Source: Hoplostethus atlanticus (lineage: Eukaryota; Chordata; Actinopteri; Trachichthyiformes; Trachichthyidae). Taken from it: a stretch of DNA of 64,000 nucleotides. The translations under genes and the position numbers were made by a program. Of this stretch, positions 10,691-63,976 are shown piece after piece. A model generated the notes under the pieces. The model did no database searches and had not been told where the DNA came from. It saw only the letters and a list, made by a program, of their open reading frames with translations. Location: contig JAXDDX010000227.1 in assembly GCA_034670405.1 (NCBI GenBank), positions 124,001 to 188,000 of the forward strand, written 5' to 3'. Position 1 is the first letter of the stretch; each line of letters begins with the position of its first letter.

Positions 10691-11068
10691 CACAATGCCA
10701 ACGGAAGCGACAGGGACTGTGATATTGTGTTGGGGAATGTTGAGTTCAGACAGAGTTGATACACTCTAATACTCAGACTGTGAGAATGCAGGCACAAATA
10801 CTGTGAATGCATGCAAAGGCACTCACATACAGAAATAGCACTTTTCTCAGATCAGCGAGACACAACTGCCATACACTCAAGGTATTGCAAAAAAAACAGA
10901 TAACTAAAACACTACATTGATTGTTATGATAGCTGATTCTTCCTCATCTAAAACTAATATTGTGTGTATTGGACTTTGCATTTATTGCATTGTCATTTGA
11001 CAGGATGGTTACCAATTTTGTTTACCGTTTTTGATTTGATTTCTTAGCTGTTTCTGCATAGATAGATA

Positions 11069-11407
11069 CACTATATGGCCAAAAGTCAGTGGACACCTGA
11101 CCATCACACCTATATGAGCTTGCTGGACATCCCATTCTAAAACAATGGGCATTAATATGGAGTCGGACGCCCCTTTGCTGCGTTCTGATTCCTCCCAAAG
11201 GTGTTCAGTGGGGTTGAGGTCAGGGCTCTGTGCAGGCCAATCGAGTTCCTCCACACCAAACTCGTCTAACCATGTCTTTATGGACCTCGCTTTGTGCACA
11301 GGGGCACAGTCATGCTGGAACAGCAAAGGGCCTTCCCCAAACTGTTGCCACAAAGTTGGAAGCGCCCAATTGGCTAAAATGTCTTTGTATCCTGTAGCAT
11401 TAAGATT
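11069..11407 (-). mobile_element. Tc1/mariner-like transposon relic, 3' half of transposase
   Basis: The plus-strand left end reads CACTATATGGCCAAAAGT, which looks like a terminal repeat of a fish DNA transposon. The minus strand then encodes an open transposase C-terminal segment: an ILANWALPTLWQQFGEGP block, a DD(E/D)-like LFQHDCAPVHKA block and the family hallmark SPDLNPTEHLWEE. In Tc1/mariner transposases these contain the second and third catalytic acidic residues. The N-terminal DNA-binding part and the other terminus are missing, and homology stops near 11,405 where a retroposon-tail-like sequence begins. It is a truncated, non-autonomous copy. Confidence 0.8.
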
Positions 11408-11442
11408 ACTAGATACTTTATTGATCCCTGGGGGGAAACTTG
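11408..11442. mobile_element. Short retroposon-tail-like sequence
   Basis: TACTTTATTGATCCCTGGGG followed by GGAAACT resembles the 3' tail shared by several fish LINE and SINE families. It abuts the end of the Tc1-like relic, so insertion of a retroposon fragment there may have truncated it. Family assignment is from memory of the tail motif only. Confidence 0.4.
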
Positions 11443-12564
11443 TTACTATGTAGTGTAAAGACTCATGCTTTCTCTGCAGCAATTCATATATGCACCATAT
11501 TGTTACTATTTAGGTTTCTGCAATCTAGAGGACAACAAGTGTGTTGTGCATCTTGTCTTCATATGTCTGTGAATACGTGGCTCACAGTAACCCTGTTTTG
11601 ATAGTGAAGCGTGGACTTTCTCTGGCTCCAGGTACTAATGTGATAATGCCTGAGTTTCTGTCATTCATTCACCTTGGACTGTGGGGCATGCTTTTTACAA
11701 GACTGTATTATCCCCACCATAATGCTCTTTCACAAAGGACTCACACTGCCATGCTATAGCATTGTAGGGAGAAAATTGCAGGCTGCACTCCACTCCTATG
11801 TAATAACTTTATTCAGCTGTCCATGGAGCACCCTGCCTGGTTTTCAAACAATGGCTACAGCAGCCTTATTCAATTGAGCCAATTGAACAGCACAGAGAAC
11901 ACAATGTACTGCAGCAACGGTGGTGCAAAAATGATAGGAACAATCTAAAAGTATAGCAATGATAGTGCTCTGTCGATGTCACATCTTTTATCAAATCATG
12001 ATATGCACTCATGAACCCGAAGTGTAGTTTTACCAAATGCACTTTCTATTATTATTTAAGTGGTGTTGCCGAATTTTTTACCCTAGGTTGCTTGAATTCC
12101 TGCCATGTGTGCTGCCGATGCATTATCCCTGAATCTAAAATGCATTGTCAGAGTTCAAAATTCAACTTCTCGTTAGCCGATAAATAGTAAGCCCAAAGTG
12201 TAGTCAAACCTGAACTACCCCTTTGAGATGTTAGTGCTTTCTGCCTTAATCCCTCACTGAGCAAATAATTGCTGATAGGGGATTTGGTGCTGAATACTGT
12301 CCAACCTTTTGGAAAGGGTTTAGCAGTAAGAAGCCTGCAAGTAATTCCAGGTGTAGGTGACATAGAAACTCTCTCTATATACATTCAGAAGTTGATTGTT
12401 AACTGTCCACAATTAAATGGATAAAGTGGATACCATGTTACATAAGAGGAATGAAAGTGAGCCGTAGTGACACTAACCTGCAGCCTCTTAAAGCAGGTCA
12501 TCTTAAAACGTGCAGTGATGAGAAGGTCAATATATCCCTTACATGAGGCAAAGTGGGTTGTCTG

Positions 12565-44415: not shown

Positions 44416-47400
44416 GTGGGTCTCCCGACAACTCTGTCCGTACTACTGTACTACTAAGTTATTTGAAATGAATGAAAAACATTAGAAATCAGTTGGAAGA
44501 TCAGATGTTTAAATTGTAGTTTTATACCATATAAGACAAGCACAAATTGTATTGATTAATAGGCCAAAGATGAATGGTTTGGAATTACAATCACATCTCT
44601 CATCCTTGTTATTTTCCTCTCTCAGGGCTGAAAATGGAAACTCATCAATTACTCTTCCAAACTGGAGGACAGGTACGGAGGATTAGAAGTACTAAGACTT
44701 TGTTTGTTGCTTGTTTACTAAGATTGGTTGTCAATGCCTTTTTCAAAGATACACAAAAATTATGTGAGAATAAGAATTTGTCGGTAAAAGAAGCAGGCGT
44801 TTTTTCAGATTTATACTGCGCGGTGGTCTATCTTTCATCAGTAATGTTGGTGTCATCCGCACTACCAATTTCTTGCTAGAGTAGCTTGGACAAAAACAGA
44901 GAAACAAGGTTTACCGCATGAGACGTTTCTTTCTGAGACGATGCACTTCCCATCAGGCAGTAGATTTGTCTTGTGCCTATTTAAGAGAGTGGCTGAGATC
45001 TACACATTACGTTTTTAAGGAAGGCTTTTCAGTGGACGTTGGAAGCATTCCACTGTTATACACATTTTCACGACAGCCTCTATTATATTCACAAGATATA
45101 CAAGAAGTGCAGTTGGAATGTGTGATGGAAAATAATAATGTAAGTGTGTTTTTAATATGTATGTGTAGTTACAGCCAGTGGAAAACCACTGAGCTAAGAG
45201 GAATGTGTGTCTGTGTGTTCATTTCTGAAAGTTTGACCTAGGATCAAGGAAGGTCAAGTCATAAGGAGTTGGGCCAGAACTTGTATTGCAGGGGAGATAA
45301 CCCCTTTAGGGTCGGGTGATGGGGGATAGCCTTGCATATCTTTATTCATTAGCCTTTTACTATGTGTGTCTGTAGAACTGGTCATTCATGTGTATAAATG
45401 TATCTGTGAAACTGAATTCTGGAGCTCATTCTGCATACATCTAGGTGTGTGTGGTTTCAGCTCTGCTTGCAAGCATTAAAGGCCTAAGAGATGAGTCTCT
45501 GATGAATATTGTGTTATAGCTTTATTGAGCTGATCTCACCAACTAGACAAAGTGCAATTGACTTAAAATTGCCACGACAAATGGTTCCATACTTAACGTT
45601 CAGTAGTTTCTCTCCATGGCTTCCATTAAAAGAAATAAGTAAATTAGTAAGTAGGTAGGTACAGTATCTTAGGTAAGTAAATAAAAGAGCAAACAAGCAA
45701 GCAACTAGATAGAGAGATAGAGAGATAGAGAGTGAAATATTTTATATTTTATATTTTCCTTTTCATCCACAGAATATGTTTCACAGTGTGTCCTCAACAA
45801 TGGCGTCAATCCATTTTGTGACTGGACAAGGGCGCAGAGAGGAACAGGTACAGTAGATACAATATCTTTGGTATGATGGCTCTTTCATGCAATGGGAGAT
45901 TCAATGTAATTACAAAATTTTGAGCTAATCATGACTTTTCAAATTTCCCTAGGCATCAGAAAGCCACGTTACAGTTATTATGACACTGTGTCACTGTGAC
46001 ACTAAGAGATACATAACTTAGTAACCTTAACCTTTACTCCCACCCATTTTGGAGGGGATTTTAGAGAGTATGGAAGGCTGGTCCACATGTCTGTTCTAAT
46101 CTGCAGGCAGGCTGTTTCTCTGTCCAGGTCTTACTGCCTATCACTAAATGATCTGAAGCAGGGTAATAATCTTTTATAGCCTGGTGTTCTCCTAGGGGCA
46201 ATCAAAGTAGAGGGCCGACACTCGAGGCTCACAGCTAGCTCAGAAACATTCCAGCTACTTGGTATCTAATTATAATGTGCCGCAACAGATGCACTTCTGT
46301 TGTTATTCCAATAACAAAGAGGTGGGAATGATTTGTCTTTTTTTTATGTGATGAAAATGATAATAAAATATAAAAGCTCCTTCCAAAATTGCACATTTAA
46401 AAAACATCTGTCACCATTCATATTGTGTGGTTGTAAATGGGGTGCTGAGTTCAGTGAATCTTTGTACTTTTAAAACAAAGTGGCAGCACAGAAAAGTTAG
46501 CGCGGCCGCCTCCTGTGGAGAGGCCCAAGCCATAATTAAGTCTGGTACACTATATCATATGCTTCTCTCACTCCCTATAATGAGCACTACTTCTCTCCAG
46601 AGGATGCCTCGGTGATTTCTTTAGAGAGCAGTGCGCTCAGGCTGGAAGGTGAAGCCTGTCTGGAGTTCTGGTACCTGGCCCCAATGGCAGCTAATGGGTC
46701 AGAACTTAGGGCTCTAGTTAAAGGCAGCACTGGACCGGTAGAAATCTGGACCTCACCTGCCCTGGACAGAGATTCTTGGAGACAAGTGTTTGTTCCCCTA
46801 TCCATCGCTGAAACAGGGACCCAGGTAAAGTACCACATATGGTTCATATGTAGCACAAACCTGTAATGCAGTTGTAACGTAGTGTATCTTAAAATAGATA
46901 TGCCTTTTTCTATCAGGTTGTATTTGAAGTGGTCCAGGGACTCTCCGTGGAAGAACAGGTCGCTGTTGATCAGATAGGAGTAAGGGAAGGCCAGTGTGGT
47001 GAGTAATTACTCTTTTGTTCTTTAAATCCTCTCAACAGATCAATGTTGGCTTTGCTTTATACCCCCTGGTGGTTAGTTTTGCATTACACAGAGTGTTATG
47101 TTACGTCCATAACACTTTGTCAGATTACTATCAATAAAACTGTAAAAGAGGTTAGTCAAAGTACATGGGTTACTAAAATGTAAACAATGTCAAGATACTG
47201 AACGTACGTACCAACATATCACAAGATCACCGTTCCAGTGCTCAAAGATGTAGAAGATAATCTAATTTTCAGACAAAGAATGTTTTTTCCTCCTCTCCTG
47301 TCTCCCTGTGATATCTCTCTAATGAGTCCTAGCTCCCCAACAGCTCATATTTCATCATTTCATCATTTCAGCAAGATGAGTGAAACTGTTTCTCATGCTA

Positions 47401-50400
47401 CCGATTAATATCAATGAAGAGAATACTGATATAAGTATCATTTAAATCCCATTATCATCATTTATGTGATTTAAGACAATTTAGTGTAGGACACATTAAC
47501 ACAGTAAATAATGTTAGTCATCCGTTATTCCAAACACTGGTATAAACAGACAGTGTTTTGTTACAGATTCATTGTTTTCTGCATCATATCCCCCACAGGA
47601 CGCCAGTGTGAAGCCAACACTGAGTTCTGGACAGATGAGTCCACTCGCTGCCTGTGTTCTGGTGGCCAGCTGTCCTGCTCTTCCTCTCAGTGCCCTGAGG
47701 GCCAAACTTGTGGCCCACAAAGGGAAAGCTCCAGCAAGATCACTACCTCGGGGACCTGCACTGTCCACAGTGACCCACAGTGCAGCACTTTTGACGGGTT
47801 CCTCTTCCGCTTCATGGCCCCCTGTACATATGTCCTGGCCAATACCTGCTCACCCACTGAGGCCCTGCCTATGTTCAGTGTAGAGGTGGTCAATGAGCCC
47901 ATGGGGAACTCATCTGAGTCTGCTGTCCAGCAGGTCAATGTGGAGCTGAAGAACCTCAGAGTGTCCCTGCTGAAGAGGCAGACCCACCGGGCCATGGTGA
48001 GTTACTTTAAACAAGAATACCAAACAATTTAAGGACTCCCATGATTCCTATGAGCTACACTCAAAACAGTATCTGCCAACATGGACAACTCTCCCCAAAA
48101 GCTAAAATGTCATACCGTCATCACAGCCTGAAGCTGCTGCATTGACAGTGGGAGACCAATTTTGACCAACTTTTATAGAACATCTGTCTGAACTTATATA
48201 TCATATTGCTTCTGAATCAGAAAATGTAACCACACTGACCAACACTCATTTTGGACACTGTCACAATTCATTTTCAGTTTAGTCCCTGTTGAGGCGTGTA
48301 TCAGTATGACATGACAGATTTGGGAAGAATATAAATATTTCTCATTTTGATTGCTATTGTAGACAGCAGTTTACTAATGCACACCAGGCTCATAATTATT
48401 ACAGTGCTGTCTGTACAACAGTATGGGCTTCAGTTTTATGGCACTGTGCAAAAGAATACTAGATAAAAGGATCCCCATATCTACAGCCGCTTGCCACTGA
48501 TAAACTGAGTTCAGTTACATAACTGAGTTTCGTTACATCATGTTCTATAATTCCCCTGCTATCAGTTTTACTAATACTACAGTTTATGTAAACTATCAGA
48601 CAAAGTGAATCCATATTGCAGTTGACAGCCGGTAAAGATGTTTAAACTAATACTGTACTCTAGGTTAACGGCATCTGGAGGAAGCTCCCGTTGAGCCTCA
48701 ACAATGGCACTGTCAAGATCCGTAGCAACCCTGCTTCTGTTGTGTTGGAGACCAGCTTTGAGCTCTCAGTCTCGTACGACAAGGCTGGTGCTGTCCATGT
48801 CACCGTGCCAGCCCTTTACTCCGGTAAAGTCTGCGGCATGTGTGGCAACTTTAACAACCGGCGAGACGACGACTACCGTAGGCCTGACGGTTCAGATGCC
48901 CCAGATGGTACGGATTTGGCTCAGAGCTGGCAGACCGAGGGAGTCGTCTCCTGTGAGACCATTCTCGTACCCCATCAGTGTGACCCACGGGAAGAGGCTG
49001 AGTATGCCAGCGAGCCTTACTGTGGAGGCCTCCTCTCTGAGACTGGGCCCTTCTCTGACTGTCTATCAGTCCTAGGGGCAGAGAGCTACTTCAGGAGCTG
49101 TGTGGCAGGGATGTGCTCGACTTATGGTGACCCGGCGGTGATATGTGCGATACAACAGGCTTACGCTGATATCTGCCAGGAGGCTGGAGTCATTATACCC
49201 AACTGGAAGAACTCTACACTCTGCCGTATGTCGCTTTATCACGTCCTATTTTTGAGTTCATGGAAATTGTTGCAAATAATGGCAGTGATGATGATGAACA
49301 ATAACCGTCACGGTCATACTCTCTCCTCTTGCTTCTCCTCTCCTCTCTCCCCTCAGCCCTGGCATGTGGTGAGAACAGCCATTATAACTCCTGTGCTGAG
49401 GGCTGCCCTGAGGTGTGCTCCATTCTGGATGTCACCGGATCCTGTGGAAGCTGTGAGGAAAGATGTGAGTGTGACCCCAGGCTTCAAACTCAGCGGGGAG
49501 AAGTGTGTCCCAGCAGAGGACTGTGGCTGCTGGAAAAATGGACAACACTATGAGGTAAGTGGCGTAGATGGAGGAGGGATTAACAATTTCAGATTCAATG
49601 ATGACTTCAACCTTACATGGATACTAATATTTAGCATTCACGCAATTTCCTTTCCACATCCAGAAAGGAGCAACTTTCTTGGAAGGAGAGTGCGAGCAGC
49701 AGTGCCAGTGCGTGGGCAATGATGAAGTCCAGTGCGCCACAATGCACTGCACAGACAATGAGGTCTGTATGATCAAGGACGGGGTCAAAGGCTGTTTCCC
49801 TTCCAAACCCGTCACCTGCAGCGTGTATGGCGATCCGCACTACATCACCTTCGATGGGAGGGCCTACGACTTCCAGGGAGGCTGCAATTACACGCTGGCT
49901 ACCACATGCAGCGGGCAGAGCTCAGTCCAGTTCACTGTGACCGGACGCAACCACCACCCCCCCCCTGGAGAACTTCTCCCGCTCCAAGCTGGAGGCTGTG
50001 GCTCTTCAGGTTGAAGATCTGCACCTCATCATGAATCAGAGTGGAGATGTCTCTGTAAGCATGAAAAAAAAACAGAATTCACTAAATAATACGCATTCCT
50101 TATTTGTGTCTGTCTGTCTGTCAGTTTTTTTGTGTGTTTTATGTGTTTAATTGCTTGCTTACTTGTACCTACATACTTAGTAATTTTCTTATTTCTTTTA
50201 ATGAAAATGAAACCATGGAAGAAACTACTGAAAATGAAGTCTGGAACCATTCCAACTGCACTTTATCATGTGGATATAATAGAGGCTGTCGTGAAAATGT
50301 GTATTACAGTGGAATGCTTCCAATGTACACTCGAAAAGTTTCTCCTGACCTGCAAGTGGCCCCTTGATTTTGAGCACCACTGTTCTGTATTATCTTCTCC

Positions 50401-53400
50401 AACGCATTAATAATGTCAGCTAATGACTTCCCAGTATCAGTGTACTCAGTGTTTATAGTCCAGAGATATGTTTCAGCGTTACTCTGTATCAGAGAGCTCA
50501 GGTCAATGGAGGAAGTCAGTTGTTTGTCATGTGGGGCTTACAGGAACACACAAACTAGAATAGCTGACCCATTTGACTTTGCCCTGCTATGAAGTCCACT
50601 CCGCTGCCCTGTATTACTGCTCAACAGTACTATATGTAGACCAGCACCTAGATCTATCAAAATTATGCTTCATTGCCTAATAGGTCATTGGTTGCACAAT
50701 CCCAGCAGTAAAAAATGTCTTTGGAAAACTACTATCGCTATGTAAAGACATTCAAAATAAAGTAGGTTATCACTTACCAACTTTGGCTGAATAAAGTAAC
50801 TAAACACATAATGGATTATCCCTTCTCTAGGTGCATAACAGATGGGTTCGTCTCCCCTATTCCACCAGCGGTACATACGGCTCGCTAACGGTCTACTCAA
50901 AGAAGCAGTATGTTATCTTGGAGACGAGTTTTGGCCTCAGGATGATGATAGACGGGCAGAACAGGCTCTTCCTGCAAGTGGATGAGCGCTACAAGGGTGA
51001 GATGTGTGGACTGTGTGGCACCTACTCTGATCTGCAAGGCGATGACTTCATAACGCCCGACGGGCAGAACGCCACCGGGCCAATTGAGTTTGGCGACAGC
51101 TGGAGGGTGATGGAGGACAACGCCTTGTGAGTCCTACTTCATATGCACATAAATCATGTAGAAAACGCTGTCTACAGCACAAGACGCATCACACATCAAT
51201 GATTCGGCAGAGTAATGATGAAATTCATAGGATATTTCTTGCCATCATACCTTACACTTCTGGTTGCTGCGATCATTCTAAAATAAGAAATAATTTCATC
51301 CCTCTCTCAATCTCTGAACTCTCTCCTCCAGGTGTATTCCCTATCCCAATGATCCCAGGCCCTGTAATGCCCACGAGGAGAATCTGGCCTACAGTGAGTG
51401 TCACAAGCTACTGGAGGATGCCTTCAGGTCCTGCCACGAACTCGTCCACCCCTTGACCTACCATACTAGCTGTGTGTATGACTACTGCGCCACTAGTGGG
51501 GACCGACACACCCTATGTGAGTCCCTGGAGTCGTATGAGGCAGCCTGCCAGGTGGCAGGGGTGGAGCTGCCCCACTGGCAGAATGACACAGCCTGCGGTG
51601 AGTGTTTGAAGGGGCTTTGGCGATGATGAGTGGTTACTGTACATGGGGTTCTGAAGGCTTAATCATATTGTTCATGATCGACTGATTGATGGATTGAATT
51701 TATGTAACAAATGAAAATACAGTGATTGACTGGCAGTAAATATTGAGTATTGAGTGAGAGCAATTCACCTAATGTGTCATCCTATTCCATGTACAGTGTC
51801 TCATATCTCTTGATTGTCTTTTCTCTCTCAAAATAATATCTTCTGTACTCTCCCCTATTGCCTTTTATTCGTTTGATTGTTGTGAACTCAGTTCCTTTGA
51901 TGACACCAGTTTCATTTATGTCTATTTCAGCCGAGCCCCAAACCTCTCCCATTCCTTCAACAACTCCAACTCCTCCTATTGCTCCAACACCCGATCAAAC
52001 TAGTAAGAACAGTGAGAGTTGGGAAGGTTTCGTTCGGTTAATAAGTTATTGATGACTAAATTTGAACAATAATCCAGTACAAATTATTTCAGTCACTTTT
52101 GGATTTTCTTGCTTCCAAAAGCTATAGAATATAACATTTATTGTAAACATGTTTTCCAATTTAAAGGCTGCAAGTTGAATACTCTTAGTATGATAATCTG
52201 CGACCATGAATAACCATTATTTCTAAAGTTGTATGAAATTATGTTCTTGTGCATTATTCATTTTACAACCAAAACACTTTCTTCCAATCTGTTTTTTTCT
52301 AATCTAATAATAGTATCTTGATTACTTCATTTTTCTTACATTAACTGTCATTTAAATGTATTAAGGTTCATAACACCCATAATCTCCATTGTTTTCATTT
52401 TTATAGTTTGCCCATTGAACTGCAATTTTGACAACAATCTGTGTGGGTGGGTGCAGCTCATACAGGACAGTTTTGATTGGACAAGACATTCAGGCCCCAC
52501 CCCATCCAAGAGCACTGGGCCAAACCAAGACCACACCAGTGGAGGTGAGACATAATGTCATATTATCACATTTAAAATGACCAATATCAGAAAAAAGTAG
52601 CCTATACTTAAACCTTGCAATCATACTGTAGCTGCTTGAGTTTTATCCATTTTGTACGATTACAGCTTATTTTATGAATCTGTATGAATGTCTTGTCTAG
52701 CGGGCTTGTACATGTACATTGAGGGTGACAGTGTGACCCATGGAGACTCAGCCCGTCTGATAAGCCCTAAGTGCCATTACAGTGGCCCACTCTGCCTGCA
52801 CTTCTGGTACCACATGTATGGTTCAGCCACAGCCATGGCCCTAAATATCTACCAGCTGCAAGAGACGAACGTCACCAGGCTATGGTCCAAGGCGAACGAC
52901 CAGGGACCAGAGTGGCTTCCAGCATATATCGATATCATGGCCTCTGGTTCATTCAAGGTAAGTCCTACACTACAACTAGAAGACAACTGTGTAATTAACC
53001 TTAAAGATAATGGTACCTAAATGTTTGTAGCTTTCCTTGCATAGAAAAAGGATGTCATCCTGTCAGTAATGAATTATATTTCCAAAATCCCTGTTTCAGA
53101 TCCTGGTGGAGGGAATACGAGGCTCTACCGCTCAATCAGACGTGGCCATAGATGACATCTCCATCCACTTTGGCTCATGCTCAGGTGACGCTGTCCTCCA
53201 ATAAAGAGGACAATTTTTATTAAACACATATCATACTATTAAGGGTTGATTTTCAAAATAAAGCTCTTGTCACTGTTTTTGTTGGCAAAATCATTTATCA
53301 CCCTATTCACGTGTCTTTTCTTCCTCTAGCTGGTTCCCCTGGACTGGTTAGTGGAACCTCACTTCCTCCCACAATTGCAGAAGTGCTCCCCTCATACCCA

Positions 53401-56400
53401 GGTAAGTACACAGGAAGATAATATTTATGGGTCAGTTGTTTCTGCATCATAAATGCCGAACCTTTATTGTAAACTGGTTACAAATTAACATTTTTCTCTA
53501 TTCAAATAAATACTGAATCTGCAATTTTGACAGGAGATTAAAGTTATAGATTGTCAGATTTTTCATTTAAGTTAATAAGTTAATGCAAATGTTCCCTTCA
53601 TAGTCTGCAGCCTCGACTGTAGCTTTGACAGCAACTTTTGCAGTTGGAATCAGATGATGACAGATGCTTTTAATTGGACATGGGAGAGTGGCTCCACCCC
53701 GACCCTGATGACTGGGCCATCTGCTGACCACACTGGAGGAGGTACACTATACTCTTTGGCTCTTATGTAATATTATAAACATTTATAATTTACAATTTAG
53801 ATGGTGTATATGTTGATGTAAGGAAAATGATCTCTGACAATGGGAAATAACAAATTGTAGTGGTATCTGATAGACAAACTTGATATATTTCCTTCTACTT
53901 ATCCAGGCGGTCACTATCTTTACATCGAAGCTACCAATGTGACACATGGAGACACGGCTCGTCTCCTCAGCTCTGAGTGTCCTGACTCTGGTCCTCAATG
54001 TCTGCAGTTCTGGTACCATATGTACGGCTCAGCCGATACGATGGGCCTCCATGTTTACTTGCTCCAAGATAGAAAGGCTGATGCTGTTTGGTGGAAGAGG
54101 AATGACCAAGGAAATATGTGGCACCTGGCTCAGGTGGACTTTACAACAAATGGATCTTTCCAGGTGAGTCAGCTCGCACTAGGCTCTCAGATGTCATACT
54201 CTGATGTTCTCATGGTAGAATATTTATATTATAAGAAACCTTACTACTAGCAATGAATGAACTCTTTGACCTCACTCAGATCATCTTTGAAGGGCGCAGA
54301 GGTTCCAACGATCAGTCGGATGTGGCCATAGACGACGTGAAGCTTCATCATGGCCGATGCTATGGTAGGAACCATGCACACAGAGAAAGTATTGATAGAT
54401 CTGGAAAGCTGAAGACTCGCTTTAACGCTATGTAGCTTGATAACTCTATCAAATCACTCACTATACCAAGTTGTTATTCTTTGTATGTATAACATTGTTA
54501 CACTCTTACAGATCTGAGTGTCGTGACTTCCAGTCCTCCAAAACCTCATATAAACTCCACAGCACCTCCAAGTCCTCCAGTGCTGACCACTGCTGCTCCA
54601 TCGCTCCCTGTGGTTAATGTTCAAAAAAGCCTCGACTGTAGCTTTGACAGCAACTTTTGCAGTTGGAATCAGATGATGACAGATGCTTTTAATTGGACAT
54701 GGGAGAGTGGCTCCACCCCGACCCTGATGACTGGGCCATCTGCTGACCACACTGGAGGAGGTACACTATACTCTTTGGCTCTTATGTAATATTATAAACG
54801 TTTATAATTTACAATTTAGATGGTGTATATGTTGATGTAAGGAAAATGATCTCTGACAATGGGAAATAACAAATTGTAGTGGTATCTGATAGACAAACTT
54901 GATATATTTCCTTCTACTTATCCAGGCGGTCACTATCTTTACATCGAAGCTACCAATGTGACACATGGAGACACGGCTCGTCTCCTCAGCTCTGAGTGTC
55001 CTGACTCTGGTCCTCAATGTCTGCAGTTCTGGTACCATATGTACGGCTCAGCCGATACGATGGGCCTCCATGTTTACTTGCTCCAAGATAGAAAGGCTGA
55101 TGCTGTTTGGTGGAAGAGGAATGACCAAGGAAATATGTGGCACCTGGCTCAGGTGGACTTTACAACAAATGGATCTTTCCAGGTGAGTCAGCTCGCACTA
55201 GGCTCTCAGATGTCATACTCTGATGTTCTCATGGTAGAATATTTATATTATAAGAAACCTTACTACTAGCAATGAATGAACTCTTTGACCTCACTCAGAT
55301 CATCTTTGAAGGGCGCAGAGGTTCCAACGATCAGTCGGATGTGGCCATAGACGACGTGAAGCTTCATCATGGCCGATGCTATGGTAGGAACCATGCACAC
55401 AGAGAAAGTATTGATAGATCTGGAAAGCTGAAGACTCGCTTTAACGCTATGTAGCTTGATAACTCTATCAAATCACTCACTATACCAAGTTGTTATTCTT
55501 TGTATGTATAACATTGATACACTCTTACAGATCTGAGTGTCGTGACTTCCAGTCCTCCAAAACCTCATATAAACTCCACAGCACCTCCAAGTCCTCCAGT
55601 GCTGACCACTGCTGCTCCACTGCTCCCTGTGGTTAATGTTCAAAAAAGCCTTGACTGTAGCTTTGACAGCAACTTTTGCAGTTGGACTCAGACGATGACA
55701 GATGCTTTTGATTGGACATGGAAGAGTGGCTCCACCCCGACCCTGATGACTGGGCCATCTGCTGACCACACTGGAGGAGGTACACTATACTCTTTGGCTC
55801 TTATGTAATATTATAAACGTTTATAATTTACAATTTAGATGGTGTATATGTTGATGTAAGGAAAATTATCTCTGACAATGGGAAATAACAAATTGTAGTG
55901 GTATCTGATAGACAAACTTGATATATTTCCTTGTACTTATCCAGGTGGTCACTATCTTTACATCGAAGCTACCAATGTGACACATGGAGACACGGCTCGT
56001 CTCCTCAGCTCTGAGTGTCCTGACTCTGGTCCTCAGTGTCTGCAGTTCTGGTACCATATGTACGGCTCAGCCGATACGATGGGCCTCCATGTTTACTTGC
56101 TCCAGGATAGAAAGGCTGATGCTGTTTGGTGGAAGAGGAATGACCAAGGAAATATGTGGCACCTGGCTCAGATGGACTTCACCACAAGCGGACCTTTTCA
56201 GGTGAGTAACCTATCACTGCTGTTTTCTTCCCCTAACCTTGCCATGTAGTAAAGCCTGATAATGGTAATTTGCCACCATTATTTTGATCACTTCGCAGGA
56301 AATAACTTTTATTTTGTGTCTTACGTGTCTAAGCCTTTAGAGGTTCCCGGTTCCCCTCAATTTGTTTCAGTCATTGCTACAACGAACGAAACGTTGATAA

Positions 56401-58877
56401 AGGTCCTTAAAAGCTTCATTCTGACTGATGATTGTCAGATGATTTTAAGAGTAAAGGAGTGAAGAGCTAAGAAACATTAGCAGCATGCAATAATACAGGA
56501 TTATTGTGTCACAGAACTAACCTTTACATTTCCAAAAACTGAATTTTAGATCATCTTTGAGGGGCGCAGAGGTTCCAATGATCAGTCTGATGTGGCCATA
56601 GATGATGTCTCTCTTCATCGTGGGCACTGTCCAGGTAAGCACATTATTCCTTCATTCACTGGTATTAAACTTTACATACAGTAAACCCAAGCTAACCCTA
56701 ACCCTAGCTAACCCTAACCCTAACCCTCTCCAACCACAGGTAGTCATGGGCCTCAGACCACAGCCAGACCACAACCACAAACCACAACTCAACCACAACC
56801 ACCAACAACAACTGCCAGACCACAGCCTCCAACCACAACTCAACCACGACCATCAACAGCCGGACCACAGCCTCCAACCACAACTCAACCACGGCCATCA
56901 ACAGCCAGACCACAGCCTCCAACCACAAACCAGCCACTACCACCAACAACAACAACAGCCAGACCACAACCACCAACCACAACTCAACCACTACCACCAA
57001 CAACAACAGCCAGACCACAGCCTCCAACCACAACTCAACCACGACCATCAACAGCTGGACCACAGCCTCCAACCACAACTCAACCACGACCATCAACAGC
57101 CAGACCACAGCCTCCAATCACAAACCAGCCACTACTACCAACAACAACAACAGCCAGACCACAACCACCAACCACAACTCAACCACTATCACCAACAACA
57201 GCCAGACCACAACCTCCAACCACAACTCAACCACTACCACCAAAAACAACAGCCAGACCACAACCACCAACCACAACTCAACCACTACCACCAACAACAA
57301 CAGCCAGACCACAGCCTCCAACCACAACTCAACCACGACCATCAACAGCTGGACCACAGCCTCCAACCACAACTCAACCACGACCATCAACAGCCAGACC
57401 ACAGCCTCCAATCACAAACCAGCCACTACTACCAACAACAACAACAGCCAGACCACAACCACCAACCACAACTCAACCACTATCACCAACAACAGCCAGA
57501 CCACAACCTCCAACCACAACTCAACCACTACCACCAAAAACAACAGCCAGACCACAACCACCAACCACAACTCAACCACTACCACCAACAACAACAGCCA
57601 GACCACAGCCTCCAACCACAACTCAACCACGACCATCAACAGCTGGACCACAGCCTCCAACCACAACTCAACCACGGCCATCAACAGCCAGACCACAGCC
57701 TCCAACCACAACTCAACCACGACCATCAACAGCTGGACCACAGCCTCCAACCACAACTCAACCACGGCCATCAACAGCCAGACCACAGCCTCCAACCACA
57801 ACTCAACCACTACCACCAACAACTACAGGAAGACCACAACCCCCAACTACATCTATACCAAGCAAGTTTTTACATTTCCCTATTCAAATATATATTGACG
57901 TATACTCAATGCTCATATATTTGTTGTAAGCCAATGACAAAGATGACCTCAAAGCTTAGAAGCTTTTAGAAAACTGGATCTTACACTACAGGGGACACAC
58001 AGACTGTATAGACAGTTTCTATCCTTGATTACATGCTTGTGGTTATATATATATATTTGTTTTTCTCCCTCTCTAGCGCCTTCTTGCCCAAAGAACAGTC
58101 ATTACACCACTTGTATCCCTGCCTGCAGACCAACCTGTAAACACCTTCATGGCCCACCTGATTGCATTATGAATGAACCATGTGTGCAGGGATGCGTATG
58201 TGATGACGGCTTTGTACTGAAACTGGGGATTTGCGTGCCAATCCATATGTGTGGCTGTGTGGACAGCAATGGCAACAAACATCATGTAAGTGACACCAAT
58301 ACAAATGACTGTGCATGTGAATAAACAACCCTAAACAGTGATGAACAAAAAGGGCATTCTACCGAAGAGGAGCCTTATTCAAAGGGCCAGTGTAGTATGA
58401 TGACTCTTTTTTTTTTCAGTTTAATGAGGTGTGGTACACCAACCACTGCAGTCAGAAATGTGAATGTGCGAAAGATGATGGTGTGGGGGAGATTGACTGT
58501 GATGATGAAGATGACTGTGATGGAAACGCTGTCTGCCTTCAAAATGAGGAGGGCCAGTATTACTGCAACCCCACAGGTAAATAACAATAGTTCACAGAAA
58601 TACTGTACTGTATTTAAAGTATATAAGCTACATTGATACATTACCACAGTTATGTCTTCCTCACTAAATTTCTTAATGTTTTCCCCCATTGCTCCACAGA
58701 CTTCAGAGAGTGTACTATCGAGGAAGACCCTGAGTACAGAACCTTTGATAAAATGAAGCATGAGTTTGAGGGTGAGCACTCATACGTGCTGGTCCAGACC
58801 ACCAACCTGCCAAATAATCTTCCAGAAGTCTACATTGAAGGCGTCAATACATTCAGCCACAGAGACAGCAGAGACAG

Positions 58878-58922
<45 letters not shown>

Positions 58923-60750
58923 CAGCAAAGAGGATGAGGAACATCACAGACTAAGAGAGCTCAAGATCAGAGTCTACAATCATACTGTGGAGTTCAAACA
59001 GAATCGAAGGCTGATCGTAAGTATCAAGGGCATTTTTTAAATATATTGCCTCCATGTCATTTTCCAATGTAGCACTTTCAACAGTCTCAGTATTATGTTC
59101 ACCGAATAATATCATCATATTTCAGCGTGCCCACAAACATTTGCCACAGCACTATGGGAAATAACCAACGCTCCTTCATATTATCTCTGCGAGGCATTAA
59201 GAGAGTGATACAGGGGATGCACTATGTGCTAAATTGTGCTGTGTCATGCTTATTTCCCTGTTGGCACATCCATGTGTCATTGTATGCGTGTTTCACTGTC
59301 AAATCATCATCAGTTAAGACAGACCAGGAAAGACAATAGATGACTCATAGCCATAAGAAAAAGAATAAGCTGTCTCTTCTGCCTTACCCAGCCAAACATG
59401 TGCACAGACCTTTGGACAGCCTGGTGTTCAGTCCAAAGACACGACAACCATCCATCACCTTATAAGGGACAAAATAAATCTCTGGGCAGTTCACAGGTCT
59501 TTGTGTGTACACCTGTCACCTATGTCAATTAATCGATATAATGTAATATCCCTATAAAAAGCAGTATGAGCTTTTTAGTTTTGACAAAATCTGCCTATAT
59601 TTGGTACTAAAAGGACATTTGTGCTCAAAGCATGAACATACTTAAGCATTACATTTTGGAAATTGTTTTCTGTTTGAAGATTGGGGAAAATGTTTTGGAA
59701 AAAGTTCAAATTCATATTCAGTTCAAATGAGCCCTAAGACGATCCAAAAGACTTTGCATCATTTTCAAGAAAACACTTTGAGTCTGGTATATGATATGTC
59801 ACAGGAACACAGTTACACTTCCACATTTAGGAGAAAGTAAAAACAAATATCGTCTTTGACATTCCTAGGAATCACAGTAAGCCCAGAAAGGATGTTAGGA
59901 AAGAAGTTCAAATGCGGGTACCCTAGTCATGGTTTAAAAAATCATCTATCTTAATGGCTACAGACATGTAATTATATAAGATAACATTTATTGACCCTAC
60001 CACCCCATCCTCTCTTCTCTCCCCCTCAAGCTGGATGGCAGGAGAACACTGACTCCTGTCTCACCGACTGGTGGTCTAAAGATCTTTGCGCGTTCCTCTC
60101 GTATCTACCTGAAGACGGACTTTGGCCTCTCGGTGGAGTTTGACGGACACGGCAGGGCAGGTAACCATCCTTCACCTCGTTACCACAAAGTATAGAGTTA
60201 AAAGATCTCATATCAATAGTCCCAGGACATCTAAGCCTTTTGAATTCATAACTAATCTATACATATCAGTTTTATTTGAGAAAATTCTAATTTTATGTGG
60301 TTTATGTGGTTTTATGCAGGGATGCTTTTTGCAAATAAACAATTTTTTCCCTAATAGGTGATGCAATGGTAGTTTTCCCAGGCTCCACACATAACAGACA
60401 TTGCATTAAAAATGGCAACGTAGAACAAATCTTACAAAAACATACCAGAACAGATTTATGTTTGAAGTTGATCAACCTTTTTCAGTTGTTTTGTGAACTT
60501 ATAGGGAAACAAATCACCAAAAACAAAATGCCACACTTAAATATCACCAGTCCATTCCAACACCAATCAGAACTGACATGAGGTTGTTGTTTTGCCTGCA
60601 GAGATCACTCTACCACACATATATAAAAGTAAGGTGGGGGGTCTGTGCGGGAACTTTGACGGCAACAAGTGGAATGACCTGATGAAGCCAGATGGCAAGA
60701 AGGCCAACAGTGTTCAAGAGTTCGGAGAGAGCTGGAGAGCTGGAGAGTGA
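44354..60750 (+). CDS. zan: Zonadhesin-like secreted MAM/VWD/mucin protein (31 exons, three frame lesions)
   Basis: Spliced gene; the exons are given below. Zonadhesins are large extracellular adhesion proteins with MAM, mucin and von Willebrand D domains. In mammals they act in sperm-egg binding, and fish members of the family are less well understood. Domain order in residues, counted after removing the two extra Cs: signal peptide 1-21, reduced MAM 37-163, VWD1 and C8 to 483, TIL 484-549, VWD2 and C8 to 866, linker, MAM 891-1050, MAM to 1234, MAM to 1431, MAM to 1628, mucin-like 1629-2002, TIL to about 2124, divergent VWD3 to about 2322. All splice phases join, and the sum of exons is a multiple of three only after removing one C at 49,475-49,478 and one at 49,957-49,965. 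As written, translation would stop at the end of exon 8. There is no transmembrane segment. A decaying paralogue or assembly errors are both possible. Confidence 0.75.
44626..44672 (+). CDS. zan: Exon 2: short linker exon
   Basis: The acceptor TTTTCCTCTCTCAG is followed by 47 nt reading [16 protein letters not shown] and the donor G|GTACGG (phase 1). It contains an N-glycosylation sequon (NSS). No domain. The phase fits exons 1 and 3, which is the main support for so small an exon. Confidence 0.6.
45773..45847 (+). CDS. zan: Exon 3: truncated MAM N-terminal part
   Basis: The exon reads [20 protein letters not shown] and then AQRGT. It resembles the MAM start (C-x-F-x..-C-x-W) but lacks most of the first-exon sequence seen in the later MAM copies, such as the DW(T/N)W and TGPSxDHT blocks. 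The acceptor is TTTTCATCCACAG and the donor CAG|GTACAG; phase 1 on both sides. Confidence 0.65.
46601..46824 (+). CDS. zan: Exon 4: MAM domain core
   Basis: The exon reads from [20 protein letters not shown] through [20 protein letters not shown] to [17 protein letters not shown]. This is the MAM middle part with the conserved C-L-x-F-W-Y segment and the W-x-x-x-x-V strand. Phase is 1 in, 0 out, matching the same exon in the other MAM copies. Confidence 0.8.
46917..46998 (+). CDS. zan: Exon 5: MAM C-terminal part
   Basis: The exon reads [20 protein letters not shown] and then GVREGQC. It corresponds to the MAM ending IxFEGxRG...DVAIDDIxxxxGxC, here diverged ([15 protein letters not shown]). 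The donor TGTG|GTGAGT is in phase 1. Confidence 0.8.
47599..47996 (+). CDS. zan: Exon 6: VWC-like segment and start of VWD1
   Basis: A cysteine-rich stretch ([20 protein letters not shown] and following) leads into the VWD start [19 protein letters not shown], which corresponds to the family GDPHYxTFDGxxYxF. [12 protein letters not shown] is the conserved GxCxYxLxxxC segment. The exon is in phase 1 in and 0 out, ending GCCATG|GTGAGT. Confidence 0.9.
48664..49225 (+). CDS. zan: Exon 7: rest of VWD1 and C8 domain
   Basis: The exon begins [20 protein letters not shown]. It contains the [20 protein letters not shown] motif (CGxCG followed by the calcium-site N-x-N-x..D-D-D) and LAQSWQ. The C8 module follows, with [37 protein letters not shown] and [10 protein letters not shown]. 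The intact CGMCG is the vicinal-cysteine motif linked to VWD multimer assembly. The donor is C|GTATGT, phase 1. Confidence 0.93.
49357..49554 (+). CDS. zan: Exon 8: TIL domain, with +1 frameshift
   Basis: The first half reads [20 protein letters not shown] through [10 protein letters not shown]. The second half continues in another frame as [20 protein letters not shown] and GQHYE. Both halves are clear trypsin-inhibitor-like cysteine-rich sequence, and the frame changes inside GACCCCAGG (C4 at 49,475-49,478), where C3 would be expected. As written the frame meets TGA close to the exon end. Removing one C gives exactly phase 0 at the GAG|GTAAGT donor. Confidence 0.85.
49664..50054 (+). CDS. 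zan: Exon 9: VWC-like segment and VWD2 start, with +1 frameshift
   Basis: The exon opens [20 protein letters not shown], then VWD2 starts with [20 protein letters not shown] and [11 protein letters not shown], all canonical. The frame breaks in the C9 run at 49,957-49,965 after VTGRNHH. One base over, the expected [20 protein letters not shown] resumes and runs to GDVS|GTAAGC. The exon is 391 nt, and 390 would give the phase 0 needed by exon 10, so one C is extra. Confidence 0.88.
50831..51126 (+). CDS. zan: Exon 10: rest of VWD2
   Basis: The exon reads [20 protein letters not shown], then [16 protein letters not shown], the [20 protein letters not shown] motif (intact CGLCG) and [13 protein letters not shown]. 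Phase is 0 in, 2 out (TT|GTGAGT). It serves as the internal reference for the SWRV ending broken in exon 31. Confidence 0.93.
51332..51597 (+). CDS. zan: Exon 11: C8 domain of VWD2
   Basis: The exon reads [20 protein letters not shown] and then [53 protein letters not shown] and HWQNDTAC. This is a full C8 cysteine pattern with no frame problem. No TIL exon follows; the gene goes directly to a Pro/Thr linker (phase 1, G|GTGAGT). Confidence 0.92.
51931..52002 (+). CDS. zan: Exon 12: Pro/Thr-rich linker
   Basis: [20 protein letters not shown] then PDQT, between acceptor TCTATTTCAG and donor A|GTAAGA. It is 72 nt, phase 1 on both sides. It is the same length and phase as the linker exon 16, so probably a related module. 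Confidence 0.8.
52407..52544 (+). CDS. zan: Exon 13: MAM2 first exon
   Basis: [33 protein letters not shown] and [10 protein letters not shown] are the canonical MAM start (C-x-F-D-x..L-C-x-W ... D-W-x-R ... T-G-P-x-x-D-H-T). Phase 1 on both sides, 138 nt, the same size as exon 17. Confidence 0.93.
52701..52957 (+). CDS. zan: Exon 14: MAM2 middle exon
   Basis: [20 protein letters not shown], then [20 protein letters not shown] and [20 protein letters not shown]. This is the conserved G-x-Y-x-Y-I-E...A-R-L...L-x-F-W-Y-H-M-Y-G MAM core. It is 257 nt, phase 1 in and 0 out. Confidence 0.93.
53100..53184 (+). CDS. zan: Exon 15: MAM2 last exon
   Basis: [20 protein letters not shown] and then SIHFGSCS, the MAM C-terminal strand with DVAIDD. 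It is 85 nt, phase 0 in and 1 out. Confidence 0.93.
53330..53401 (+). CDS. zan: Exon 16: linker
   Basis: [20 protein letters not shown] then PSYP. A Pro-rich linker of 72 nt, phase 1 both sides, separated by an intron of about 200 bp from the next MAM exon. In the following copies the linker and MAM exon are fused. Confidence 0.8.
53604..53741 (+). CDS. zan: Exon 17: MAM3 first exon
   Basis: [40 protein letters not shown] and ADHTGGG, with donor G|GTACAC. This opens the first copy of the 1,019-bp tandem repeat; identity with the later copies begins within its first few bases. Confidence 0.9.
53907..54163 (+). CDS. zan: Exon 18: MAM3 middle exon
   Basis: [20 protein letters not shown], then [20 protein letters not shown] and [20 protein letters not shown]. 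It is 257 nt, phase 1 in and 0 out. It looks identical in sequence to exon 21. Confidence 0.92.
54280..54364 (+). CDS. zan: Exon 19: MAM3 last exon
   Basis: [20 protein letters not shown] and then KLHHGRCY. It is 85 nt, phase 0 in and 1 out. Confidence 0.92.
54512..54760 (+). CDS. zan: Exon 20: fused linker and MAM4 first exon
   Basis: A Pro/Ser/Thr linker ([35 protein letters not shown]) runs without an intron into [20 protein letters not shown] and the rest of the MAM start. It is 249 nt, phase 1 on both sides. In the preceding unit the linker and MAM start are separate exons. Confidence 0.92.
54926..55182 (+). CDS. zan: Exon 21: MAM4 middle exon
   Basis: The second copy of exon 18 (offset exactly 1,019 bp), with the same splice sites and phases. 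The [20 protein letters not shown] core is present. Confidence 0.92.
55299..55383 (+). CDS. zan: Exon 22: MAM4 last exon
   Basis: The second copy of exon 19, [20 protein letters not shown] then KLHHGRCY; phase 0 in and 1 out. Confidence 0.92.
55531..55779 (+). CDS. zan: Exon 23: fused linker and MAM5 first exon
   Basis: A copy of exon 20 with a few changes, for example [20 protein letters not shown] in place of [20 protein letters not shown]. 249 nt, phase 1 on both sides. This is the most diverged part of the third unit, so some coding change has built up since duplication. Confidence 0.92.
55945..56201 (+). CDS. zan: Exon 24: MAM5 middle exon
   Basis: The third copy of exon 18, ending [12 protein letters not shown]. 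Base identity with the other copies ends at the donor GTGAGT (56,202), which marks the duplication boundary. Confidence 0.92.
56550..56634 (+). CDS. zan: Exon 25: MAM5 last exon
   Basis: [20 protein letters not shown] then SLHRGHCP; 85 nt, phase 0 in and 1 out. Its upstream intron (348 bp) differs from the 116-bp intron in the other copies, so this exon is the original one of the array. Confidence 0.9.
56684..56733 (+). repeat. Telomere-like CCCTAA repeats in the intron before the mucin exon
   Basis: Several CTAACCCTAACCCTAGCTAA type units lie within the intron and reach to a few bases from the acceptor CAACCACAG. They match the vertebrate telomere hexamer with GCTAACCCTA variants. A short interstitial telomeric-like array here also supplies pyrimidines in front of the acceptor. 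Confidence 0.75.
56740..57861 (+). CDS. zan: Exon 26: mucin-like Pro/Thr/Gln exon
   Basis: One exon of 1,122 nt (374 codons) in phase 1 on both sides. The frame set by exon 25 reads [20 protein letters not shown] and continues with [17 protein letters not shown] and [15 protein letters not shown] type units. It stays open to the end, as expected of a threonine-rich O-glycosylated mucin spacer. It contains an identical-looking 294-bp tandem repeat. The longer His/Gln/Asp open frame over the same bases (starting 56,602) is a shadow, because it does not continue the phase of exons 25 and 27. The 3' border is best explained by a GC donor (A|GCAAGT). Confidence 0.88.
57051..57638 (+). repeat. 294-bp tandem repeat in the mucin exon, two copies
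   Basis: Units start at 57,051 and 57,345 with ACAGCTGGACCACAGCCTCC, and the same start recurs at 57,639. The two units look identical by eye. 294 is a multiple of three (98 codons), so copy number can change without breaking the frame. A further unit of 90 bp recurs from 57,639 to 57,729. Confidence 0.9.
58077..58285 (+). CDS. zan: Exon 27: second TIL domain
   Basis: [20 protein letters not shown], then [20 protein letters not shown] and [20 protein letters not shown]: a complete TIL cysteine pattern. The acceptor is TTCTCCCTCTCTAG. The domain frame needs one base from the previous exon, which only the GC donor at 57,862 provides. Phase 0 out. Confidence 0.9.
58420..58576 (+). CDS. zan: Exon 28: VWC-like acidic cysteine segment
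   Basis: [20 protein letters not shown] and then [20 protein letters not shown] and [12 protein letters not shown]. It is the segment that joins TIL to the next VWD in this family (F-x..W-x..C-x-x-x-C-x-C). Phase 0 in and 1 out. Confidence 0.9.
58700..59016 (+). CDS. zan: Exon 29: VWD3 start with poly-Asp insert
   Basis: [20 protein letters not shown], then [20 protein letters not shown]: a VWD start with EDPEYRTFD in place of GDPHYxTFDG. The conserved cysteines of GxCxYxLxxxC are replaced by His and Thr. A (GAT)14-GAC run (58,879-58,923) inserts 15 aspartates followed by SKEDEEHH between two predicted strands. The frame is open and ends ATC|GTAAGT, phase 0. Confidence 0.9.
58879..58923 (+). 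repeat. Coding (GAT)n microsatellite
   Basis: A perfect GAT tract of 14 units plus GAC inside exon 29. It encodes 15 aspartates and is likely to vary in length between individuals. Confidence 0.95.
60031..60160 (+). CDS. zan: Exon 30: VWD3 middle
   Basis: [20 protein letters not shown] then [20 protein letters not shown], the VWD strands ending with the typical TDFGLSVxFDG motif. Phase 0 in and 1 out (G|GTAACC). The intron before it, about 1 kb, is the longest in the 3' half of the gene. Confidence 0.9.
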
Positions 60751-60778
60751 CAGAAAACTCTCTGAATATCAGATGGAG
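60602..60778 (+). CDS. zan: Exon 31: VWD3 end, broken by an 8-bp duplication
   Basis: [20 protein letters not shown] then [20 protein letters not shown] and FGESWR. The first Cys of CGLCG is Gly (VGGLCG). AGCTGGAG is present twice in tandem (60,730-60,745), giving ...SWRAGE and a stop at 60,748-60,750. With one copy the frame continues [13 protein letters not shown] to the AG|GTAAGA donor in phase 2, the same ending and phase as VWD2 exon 10. Confidence 0.88.
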
Positions 60779-61994: not shown

Positions 61995-63793
61995 GTGAGT
62001 GAATTGTGATATTGAATAACTTCATGAAATGACATTATGGCATCGGTGACCTTAGAGTTAATCTCATGCTACAAAAAGCTGTTTGAATTTATATTGCTAT
62101 GAGCCACAATATATTTACTACTGACAAGGATGAGCAATTAGGTGTTGGTGAGACAAAACTACTACAAATACATAATACTAATACAATCTTGAAAATTCAA
62201 ATAACAACAGCATTTTTTTAACAATCCAAATTATAGTAGTAATTTTGGAGAGTAATAGAGTAATTTTGGATTATTTGTTATGTCACATAATTTTAAATTC
62301 TGTATATTAGGACTTTAATGACTTGATATTGTGATGATCAAGTCGTTTTTGATAAATAGGCCAAAGAACAAGAAATTAGATCTTTTCAGATACTGTACTT
62401 TTCATTTCCACTGTCTGATTATGTGAATTTCCAAGCCTGTATGGGTATAGATGAAGTAGCGAACCCCTGTTGGTAATATCTCACCTATAGAACAAGTTTA
62501 TTGTCCTTGCACTCTTGAATAATATTGTATCCATGGTTAGCCAAATCACTGACTTGACATATAGGTCATGAGCAATTAAAGTAGCCATTCATCAGTGCTA
62601 ATTGCACTCAACTCCATGGGAAAGTTTGCCTCGTAAATTAGCACTTGGAATAACAAATGATCAAGTAAGTCATTATCAACATGAAGTAATGAGGCTAAAT
62701 AATGAACAGGTACTAACTTTGTATTGATGGTTATGCTGCATCATTCTTTAATATAGGCTAACTGAGTAAATATGATGATTACTTGATAAATGATGGATTA
62801 AACAGATTAAGAAATGCCATAATTCCATGAATTAATAATAAAATGACACGTGAAACATTTGGATAAGCAACGTTGTCTAGACAAAGAGAGACAGGCATTT
62901 TCCGTTTGCATTTGCAGTTGACTGAGAGCTTTTTTCACACCTGAAATATGACCGGTCTGTAAGTGTGTGAGTAATTGTTTAGATCTACTTGTCTGACAAC
63001 TTGTCTGTCTCCCGTCTGAAAGGAAAGGTTCAACTCTGTGAATGCCGACTGTTGCTGTTCCAGACAGACGGTGGCATCAATATTAATTGATACCTGTGTC
63101 TTCTAACCAGGACAAAGGTGCATCGCAAATGTTGTTTTGCTGGAATCACATGTAATTTTCTCCCTATTTCACTGACTCTTCTAGCTCAAACAACGACGCG
63201 CCCTACTGAATCCAGCCCGACAGATCCTTTCCACCAGACCACCCCGTACACCTCAATCCCTCCTACCTCTGCTACACCAACCTCTGTTCCACCCATTTCA
63301 CCAAGATCCACCTCAGTCACAGACACACAGTTAGTGACCTCAAAAGTCACGACGACTCCTACTGCCCATTTGAACACCTTGATCACACCCGCCTCGTTAA
63401 CTACATCCACGCAAAATACGTCAATCTCCCATTCCTCCAACGCAGCGACATCTGCCTCCACCTCACCTCCGCAACCCTCAGCTACATTTAATTCCCCTCC
63501 ATTTATCTCATCTACATCCACCCAAGACCATTCAAACACTTCTACTGCTCCCATTCCTCCCCAACTGATCCCTGACAGGCTATCCCTGAACGGCTTGGGC
63601 AGACAGCTACTAAATACCTCACAGCTCTCAGTTACTACTACCATTATCCCTACATTACCTGCTATACCACGGGGTGAGTCACTGGTCATCTGACTATTGT
63701 TTGTCAGATATCACTTTTTATTGTAAGATATCCTTTTTATGTGATTTTTGATATGCTGCATTTACAGTTATCAAACAGTACATACAACATTGA

Positions 63794-63830
<37 letters not shown>

Positions 63831-63976
63831 GTGTGCTCCAGGCTGCTCAGGTCCTCCTGTGCTATGCTGCCCTGGTCAGAACCTCAGCTGTAGACGAGGG
63901 TGTTTCTGTGACGACTTCTGTGTGCTCTTCAAGGACTGCTGTCCCGACCATGCGTCCACCTGCAGACAACGTCAAG
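61937..63976 (+). CDS. Partial gene: secreted mucin-like protein with somatomedin-B-like domain
   Basis: Three exons with joining phase-1 borders: a possible signal exon (61,937-61,994), a Ser/Thr/Pro exon (63,185-63,673) and a cysteine exon (63,842-63,976), with a donor at the end, so the gene continues beyond the window. The cysteine exon resembles somatomedin-B domains found in secreted and surface proteins. Without the 3' part, which might carry a ZP, Sushi or other domain, the product cannot be named. The first exon is uncertain because the mucin exon region can also open with its own ATG at 63,118. Confidence 0.6.
61995..63184. other. Putative first intron of the second gene
   Basis: AT-rich, no recognised element. 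An ATG at 63,118 opens a frame (MHRKCCFAGITCNFLPISLT) that runs through the acceptor into the mucin exon. Its hydrophobic stretch is the translation of the pyrimidine tract, so it looks like an artefact, but it could be an alternative start. Confidence 0.4.
63185..63673 (+). CDS. Ser/Thr/Pro-rich mucin-like exon
   Basis: AQTTTRPTESSPTDPFHQTT continues with runs such as SIPPTSATPTSVPPISPRST and SLTTSTQNTSISHSSNAATS. About 163 codons, almost no cysteine, many potential O-glycosylation sites and several N-glycosylation sequons. Acceptor CTGACTCTTCTAG, donor G|GTGAGT, phase 1 both sides. Confidence 0.8.
63796..63826. repeat. (GT)n microsatellite before a splice acceptor
   Basis: A GT tract ending 15 bases before the CCAG acceptor of the cysteine exon. 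Confidence 0.95.
63842..63976 (+). CDS. Somatomedin-B-like cysteine exon
   Basis: GCSGPPVLCCPGQNLSCRRG then CFCDDFCVLFKDCCPDHAST and CRQRQ. The C-x-C-D-x-x-C-x(5)-D-C-C-x-D core is that of somatomedin-B domains (vitronectin, ENPP, SUSD2, PRG4 families). 135 nt, phase 1 both sides, donor AAG|GTGAAA. The exact protein cannot be told from this single domain. Confidence 0.75.

Follow-up and report, generated by a model that had tools for sequence, protein, structure and literature searches.

We analyzed a window of 64,000 nt from Hoplostethus atlanticus (assembly GCA_034670405.1, contig JAXDDX010000227.1, positions 124,001 to 188,000 of the forward strand); all coordinates below are those of this window, and the evidence comes from one assembly. 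To judge from its domains, the window holds a zonadhesin-like gene (zlg, FCGBP-like), which codes for a mucus-type adhesion protein, and part of the MAM block of this gene consists of a tandem exon-intron array with a unit of 1,019 bp. Pfam matches gave the order VWD-C8-TIL, TILa-VWD-C8, four MAM domains (expected value, E, 9.6e-165), a Pro/Thr-rich mucin region, TIL, and a third VWD. Their shared strand, order, and intron phase suggest that these domains belong to one transcript. The features are as follows.

46601..46998, plus strand: partial MAM with exons B and C but no exon A found, upstream of VWD1; possibly part of this gene
47599..51597, plus strand: VWD-C8-TIL and TILa-VWD-C8 exons in the upstream part of the gene
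52407..53184, plus strand: MAM0, the first of the block (exons A0 52407-52544, B0 52701-52957, C0 53100-53184)
53330..53401, plus strand: linker exon L0, apart from MAM exon A1 (53604-53741)
53609..54627, plus strand: repeat unit 1 (remainder of exon A1, then B1, C1, the linker portion of LA2, and three introns)
54512..54760, plus strand: fused linker+MAM exon LA2, 249 nt
54628..55646, plus strand: repeat unit 2, sharing 1,015 of 1,019 bases with unit 1
55531..55779, plus strand: fused linker+MAM exon LA3, 249 nt
55647..56171, plus strand: near-identical front of unit 3, sharing 515 of 525 bases with unit 2
56172..56634, plus strand: older rear of MAM3 (end of B3, a 348-bp intron, and exon C3 at 56550-56634)
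56740..57861, plus strand: Pro/Thr-rich mucin exon with 294-bp and 45-bp repeats (GC donor modelled)
58077..60778, plus strand: downstream TIL and third VWD exons

Units 1 and 2 are arranged head-to-tail with an exact spacing of 1,019 bp, and they differ at only four positions (99.6% identity, introns included). A 1-kb match at this level exceeds chance. Two of the differences (53781 and 54498) are located in introns, and the other two, next to each other at 54601-54602, fall in the linker portion of the fused exon; the MAM-coding bases are identical at 475 of 475 positions (the 480 of a complete domain less the first five). Unit 3 remains similar to unit 2 up to about 56171. Past this position, the match falls to 23 of 30 bases in what is left of exon B and to 68 of 85 in exon C, and the rear exons are 77-80% identical to those of units 1 and 2; the intron between exons B and C measures 348 bp in unit 3 versus 116 bp in the other units. 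The best change-point for the identity of unit 3 was placed at 55153/56172, inside exon B (twice the log-likelihood difference, 2 delta lnL, of 20.4). The original prediction, made from the sequence of this stretch, described 1,019-bp tandem MAM units in "two and a half" copies, and both the exact spacing and the alignment bear this out. Its proposal that MAM modules, introns included, were recently amplified in tandem or homogenised finds support in the near-identical units 1 and 2. The predicted span of 53608..56201 has the correct location; however, the near-identity runs from 53609 and stops approximately 30 bases before 56201. The fused exon at the unit junction, the mosaic unit 3, and the frame breaks elsewhere in the gene are absent from the original prediction. 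The A-B intron of every unit also contains an 18-base palindrome (53772-53789, 54791-54808, and 55810-55827), which is perfect in units 2 and 3 and is interrupted in unit 1 at one of the four positions where units 1 and 2 differ.

Each MAM domain is encoded by exons A (138 nt), B (257 nt), and C (85 nt), 480 nt in total, with equal intron phase on both sides. A repeat unit encodes one MAM domain and a linker in frame, with 591 coding bases for 197 residues, so that gain or loss of a unit preserves the reading frame. The units thus form an intragenic tandem exon-intron array: they are placed head-to-tail, they contain exons as well as introns, and their coding length is a multiple of three. A single open frame runs through all 14 linker and MAM exons, which have AG/GT sites, and the mucin exon carries the frame on, with a GC donor as modelled. 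The linker exons that precede MAM0 and MAM1 are 72 nt long and separate from MAM exon A, and MAM0 is about 62% identical to MAM1 in DNA. Units 2 and 3 start within a single 249-nt exon, in which the linker code enters the MAM domain at the sixth base of exon A; only an AG before the MAM code is common to the units at this junction. Because MAM0 and MAM1 have separate exons at the equivalent place, we take the fused exon as derived. The noteworthy details of the array are this fusion of exons in frame and the mosaic nature of unit 3.

The divergence between MAM1 and MAM3 is uneven along the domain. For the rear 114 coding bases, the synonymous divergence (dS) is 0.955 and the nonsynonymous divergence (dN) is 0.128; for the preceding 360 coding bases, the values are 0.057 and 0.014. 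The contrast in dS suggests that MAM1 and MAM3 are old paralogues, whose fronts became similar through an exchange within exon B. The fused exon, present in units 2 and 3, would then either predate this exchange or have been spread by it. As we read these distances, the history of the array has two layers, an older exchange in exon B and a younger duplication that gave units 1 and 2, and the likeness of units 1 and 2 postdates the exchange. With an assumed, not measured, rate of 2.5e-9 to 1e-8 substitutions per site per year, the 0.39% divergence between units 1 and 2 would correspond to about 0.2-0.8 million years.

We considered whether unit 2 was produced by a single unequal crossover of units 1 and 3. 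This is not a simple solution. Such a crossover would leave unit 2 similar to unit 3 as far as the crossover point; at 54633, the sixth base of the unit and the first difference between units 2 and 3, unit 2 resembles unit 1, and at 54800 it resembles unit 3. The unit 1-like base at 54633 would place the crossover in the first few bases, or else call for a later change in unit 3 or a subsequent conversion. The fused exon, for its part, may have arisen through loss of the intron between linker and MAM in a downstream MAM before any duplication. In a homology test of the linker and intron flanks of the MAM domains (8 stretches, 28 pairs), no pair exceeded a z of 3.5 relative to 100 shuffles.

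PF00629, searched against the 632.8-Mb assembly, returned at least 67 MAM matches on at least 23 contigs. As a control, we took MAM regions from 10 of the other 22 MAM contigs (15 stretches, 150 kb), although some matches on these contigs fall outside the stretches. Counting shared 25-base words at spacings of 150-8,000 bp, with low-complexity words ignored, revealed no such array in the control MAM regions, where the best spacing had 2 shared words versus 1,246 here. Among the MAM genes that were compared, such an array is unusual. When the unit was used as query against the assembly, four matches were obtained, all on the array contig (the three units and exon C3); this search found no second allele of the locus. 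The best-scoring other MAM in the assembly is 43% identical.

The placement of VWD domains ahead of the MAM block, with one VWD after the mucin region, is the zlg order, as in salmon. Zonadhesin itself (zan) was rejected as the identity of the gene: zan puts MAM before mucin and VWD, whereas here two VWD domains precede MAM. Zonadhesin has been described as beginning with MAM domains, followed by mucin, a VWD array, and a transmembrane part (PMC1325057). Another contig of the same assembly (C274), on which VWD matches come after a MAM match, is a better candidate for zan than the array contig. The link to rapidly evolving zonadhesin that the original prediction drew is weak, given the domain order of fish zlg and MAM dN/dS ratios well below 1. 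In salmon, zlg transcripts were found chiefly in gut and liver, weakly in ovary, and not in testis; zebrafish zlg is located on chromosome 2 (PMC1325057). The 5' end of the gene in the window was not found; a sub-cut-off TILa-like piece and the partial MAM lie upstream of VWD1, and the first exon of this partial MAM was not found.

The dN/dS ratio is approximately 0.13 for the rear of MAM1 and MAM3 and approximately 0.2 for MAM0 and MAM1; for the front of MAM1 and MAM3 it is approximately 0.25, which is not significant (Fisher p 0.057). Taken at the level of coding substitutions, the MAM comparisons indicate constraint. Positive selection is unsupported: exon A of units 1 and 2 differs from that of unit 3 by four nonsynonymous changes and one synonymous change (proportions per site, pN and pS, of 0.038 and 0.039), and the comparison of the nonsynonymous changes with the intron gave a Fisher p of 0.21.

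MAM0 and MAM1 each contain six cysteines, and MAM2 and MAM3 five; the fused exon is without the first MAM cysteine. Three N-glycosylation sequons are present in each of MAM1 and MAM2, and one in each of MAM3 and MAM0. Outside the window, the first cysteine occurs in 1 of 16 motif matches and its presumed partner in 0 of 22, some of which are probably not MAM. The joint presence of the two in MAM0 and MAM1, together with their rarity elsewhere, suggests that the missing first cysteine pairs with the fourth, an idea prompted by the disulfides of RPTPmu. Since the fused exon is without the first cysteine, each added copy would carry a probable unpaired cysteine, and copy number would then set the number of covalent cross-links of the mucus protein; we regard this reading, in which the duplication junction altered the protein besides lengthening it, as very doubtful.

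Three frame breaks were detected in exons that flank the MAM block. One is located in the TIL exon near 49475, at a short C-run, one at a run of nine Cs (49957-49965), and one near 60730, at an 8-bp tandem repeat (60727-60750), after which a stop is reached at 60748. They may be sequencing errors or real lesions. Real lesions would mean that this allele does not produce the modelled array; errors would mean an imperfect assembly at this place.

On balance, we think it probable that the array reflects a real and recent tandem gain of a MAM module within a fish zonadhesin-like gene. Early on, a rearrangement would have brought linker code up against the sixth base of the first exon of a MAM domain, creating a fused exon that kept the frame. 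An exchange inside exon B, through crossover or conversion, would have placed the fused-exon front on the older last MAM, and, much later, unequal recombination or slippage would have added a unit, resulting in units 1 and 2. On our best reading, the effect would be a longer adhesive stretch between the VWD and mucin parts of a secreted mucus-type protein. Copy number would be exposed to further unequal crossing over, and a MAM copy-number polymorphism, which the original prediction called probable, is plausible. Several points weigh against a recent gain. Support comes from a single assembly of a single individual; the 0.39% difference between units 1 and 2 falls in the allelic range, and a haplotype misplaced in tandem is conceivable; conversion between older copies would give an identical picture; and unit 2 is no simple crossover product, being like unit 1 at one site and like unit 3 at another.

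Concerted evolution, in which gene conversion kept three old copies alike and copy number did not change recently, is a possible but rather unlikely alternative. The mosaic unit 3, with its switch in exon B from a front dS of 0.057 to a rear dS of 0.955, implies at least one exchange between old copies, as this explanation expects. However, units 1 and 2 are alike across 1,019 bp, including the B-C and C-linker introns, and no old segment remains; one recent gain is a simpler explanation for this whole-unit likeness than conversion, and unit gain is preferred for the last step. It is quite improbable that the assembly created the array by placing a second haplotype, as unit 2 or unit 1, in tandem, misled by the likeness of units 1 and 3. 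Allelic variation could produce four differences in 1,019 bases, and the broken frame of the TIL and VWD exons indicates that the local sequence may contain errors. In contrast, the same fused exon is found at the junctions of units 1-2 and 2-3, the locus has no other copy in the assembly, and the contigs are long, with no N in the stretches fetched, although none of these observations is decisive. The window and control stretches contain no N and the fetched contigs reach 8.7 Mb, which suggests long reads able to span 2.6 kb and favors a true array. Decay of the gene in this lineage, with the array as a neutral by-product, is compatible with the other explanations but unlikely. The three frame shifts, the first two of which are upstream of the MAM block, are what one would cite for it; however, the linker, MAM, and mucin exons are all open, two of the three breaks are at C-runs, which are common sites of sequencing errors, and the low dN/dS values for the MAM1/MAM3 rear and for MAM0/MAM1 argue against decay, though they reflect past constraint.

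A recent gain of this type would have precedents, and by analogy the array belongs to a known kind that includes FCGBP, zebrafish zan, mouse Zan, and LPA KIV-2. Salmon Zlg likewise has two VWD domains, then a MAM block, a mucin region, and a last VWD; however, it has two MAM domains, and the salmon study reports no recent duplications by Dotter or PipMaker, whereas here there are four MAM domains, three of them in a young array (PMC1325057). The salmon protein also begins just before VWD1, whereas the window has a partial MAM upstream of VWD1 (PMC1325057). Human FCGBP, from the same wider gene family, contains three near-identical sets of domains, at least 99% identical in the segment studied; its repeats are VWD (D) assemblies instead of MAM domains (PMC10880436). 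In-frame tandem amplification of exon-intron cassettes is also seen in the VWD blocks of zebrafish zan and the D3p cassettes of mouse Zan (PMC1325057, PMC9275260). Two or three blocks occur in zebrafish zan, which was discussed as a possible population variant or assembly collapse; these VWD blocks are about 5 kb long with 85-87% identity, in contrast to the MAM units here (PMC1325057). They are flanked by phase-1 introns, whereas the unit junction here is located inside an exon (PMC1325057), and in this coding sequence it fused two exons in frame, unlike the intron-bounded zebrafish blocks. The variable number of tandem repeats (VNTR) of LPA KIV-2 is a protein-coding tandem unit within one gene as well; here the unit is 1 kb, and two to three units are known from one assembly (PMC11462820). 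Among the literature matches listed, none stood out as a study of MAM copy number in zonadhesin-like genes, which is no proof of absence. If copy number varies, the array would give a mucus protein a compact coding VNTR, and gut phenotype could then be related to the dose of an adhesion domain; otherwise, it would be one more in-frame domain amplification in the zonadhesin/FCGBP family.

Two further repeats were noted in the same gene. None of the three forward frames is interrupted in the mucin repeat (56602-57969; 455, 401, and 384 aa), probably owing to the scarcity of T and G on this strand; the GC skew is -0.47 over 56001-58000. A perfect GAT repeat of 14.7 copies (58879-58922) encodes an aspartate run inside the third VWD exon, and its length is likely variable.

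Elsewhere in the window, an open reading frame (ORF) on the minus strand (11009-11509) has a match to the DDE_3 endonuclease (E 2.1e-7), and we take it to be, probably, a remnant of the Tc1/mariner type. Beyond the window, a KCNE-like ORF at 5.4-6 kb matches Pfam ISK_Channel with E 0.00015 and 21.9 bits, below the cut-off of 22.1. An ORF at about 9.6-9.9 kb beyond the window has no Pfam match; in our judgment it resembles the end of PAX3/7, and zebrafish pax3a is presumably on chromosome 2, like zlg. A neighboring gene starts at 63181-63976 with a Ser/Thr-rich exon, followed by a match to somatomedin B whose 23.1 bits equal the Pfam cut-off. This Ser/Thr-rich gene contains a second array, made of exon-plus-intron cassettes, 0.35-3.1 kb past the right end of the window; the five copies found are 87-97% identical, with spacings of 489, 491, 864, and 504 bp.
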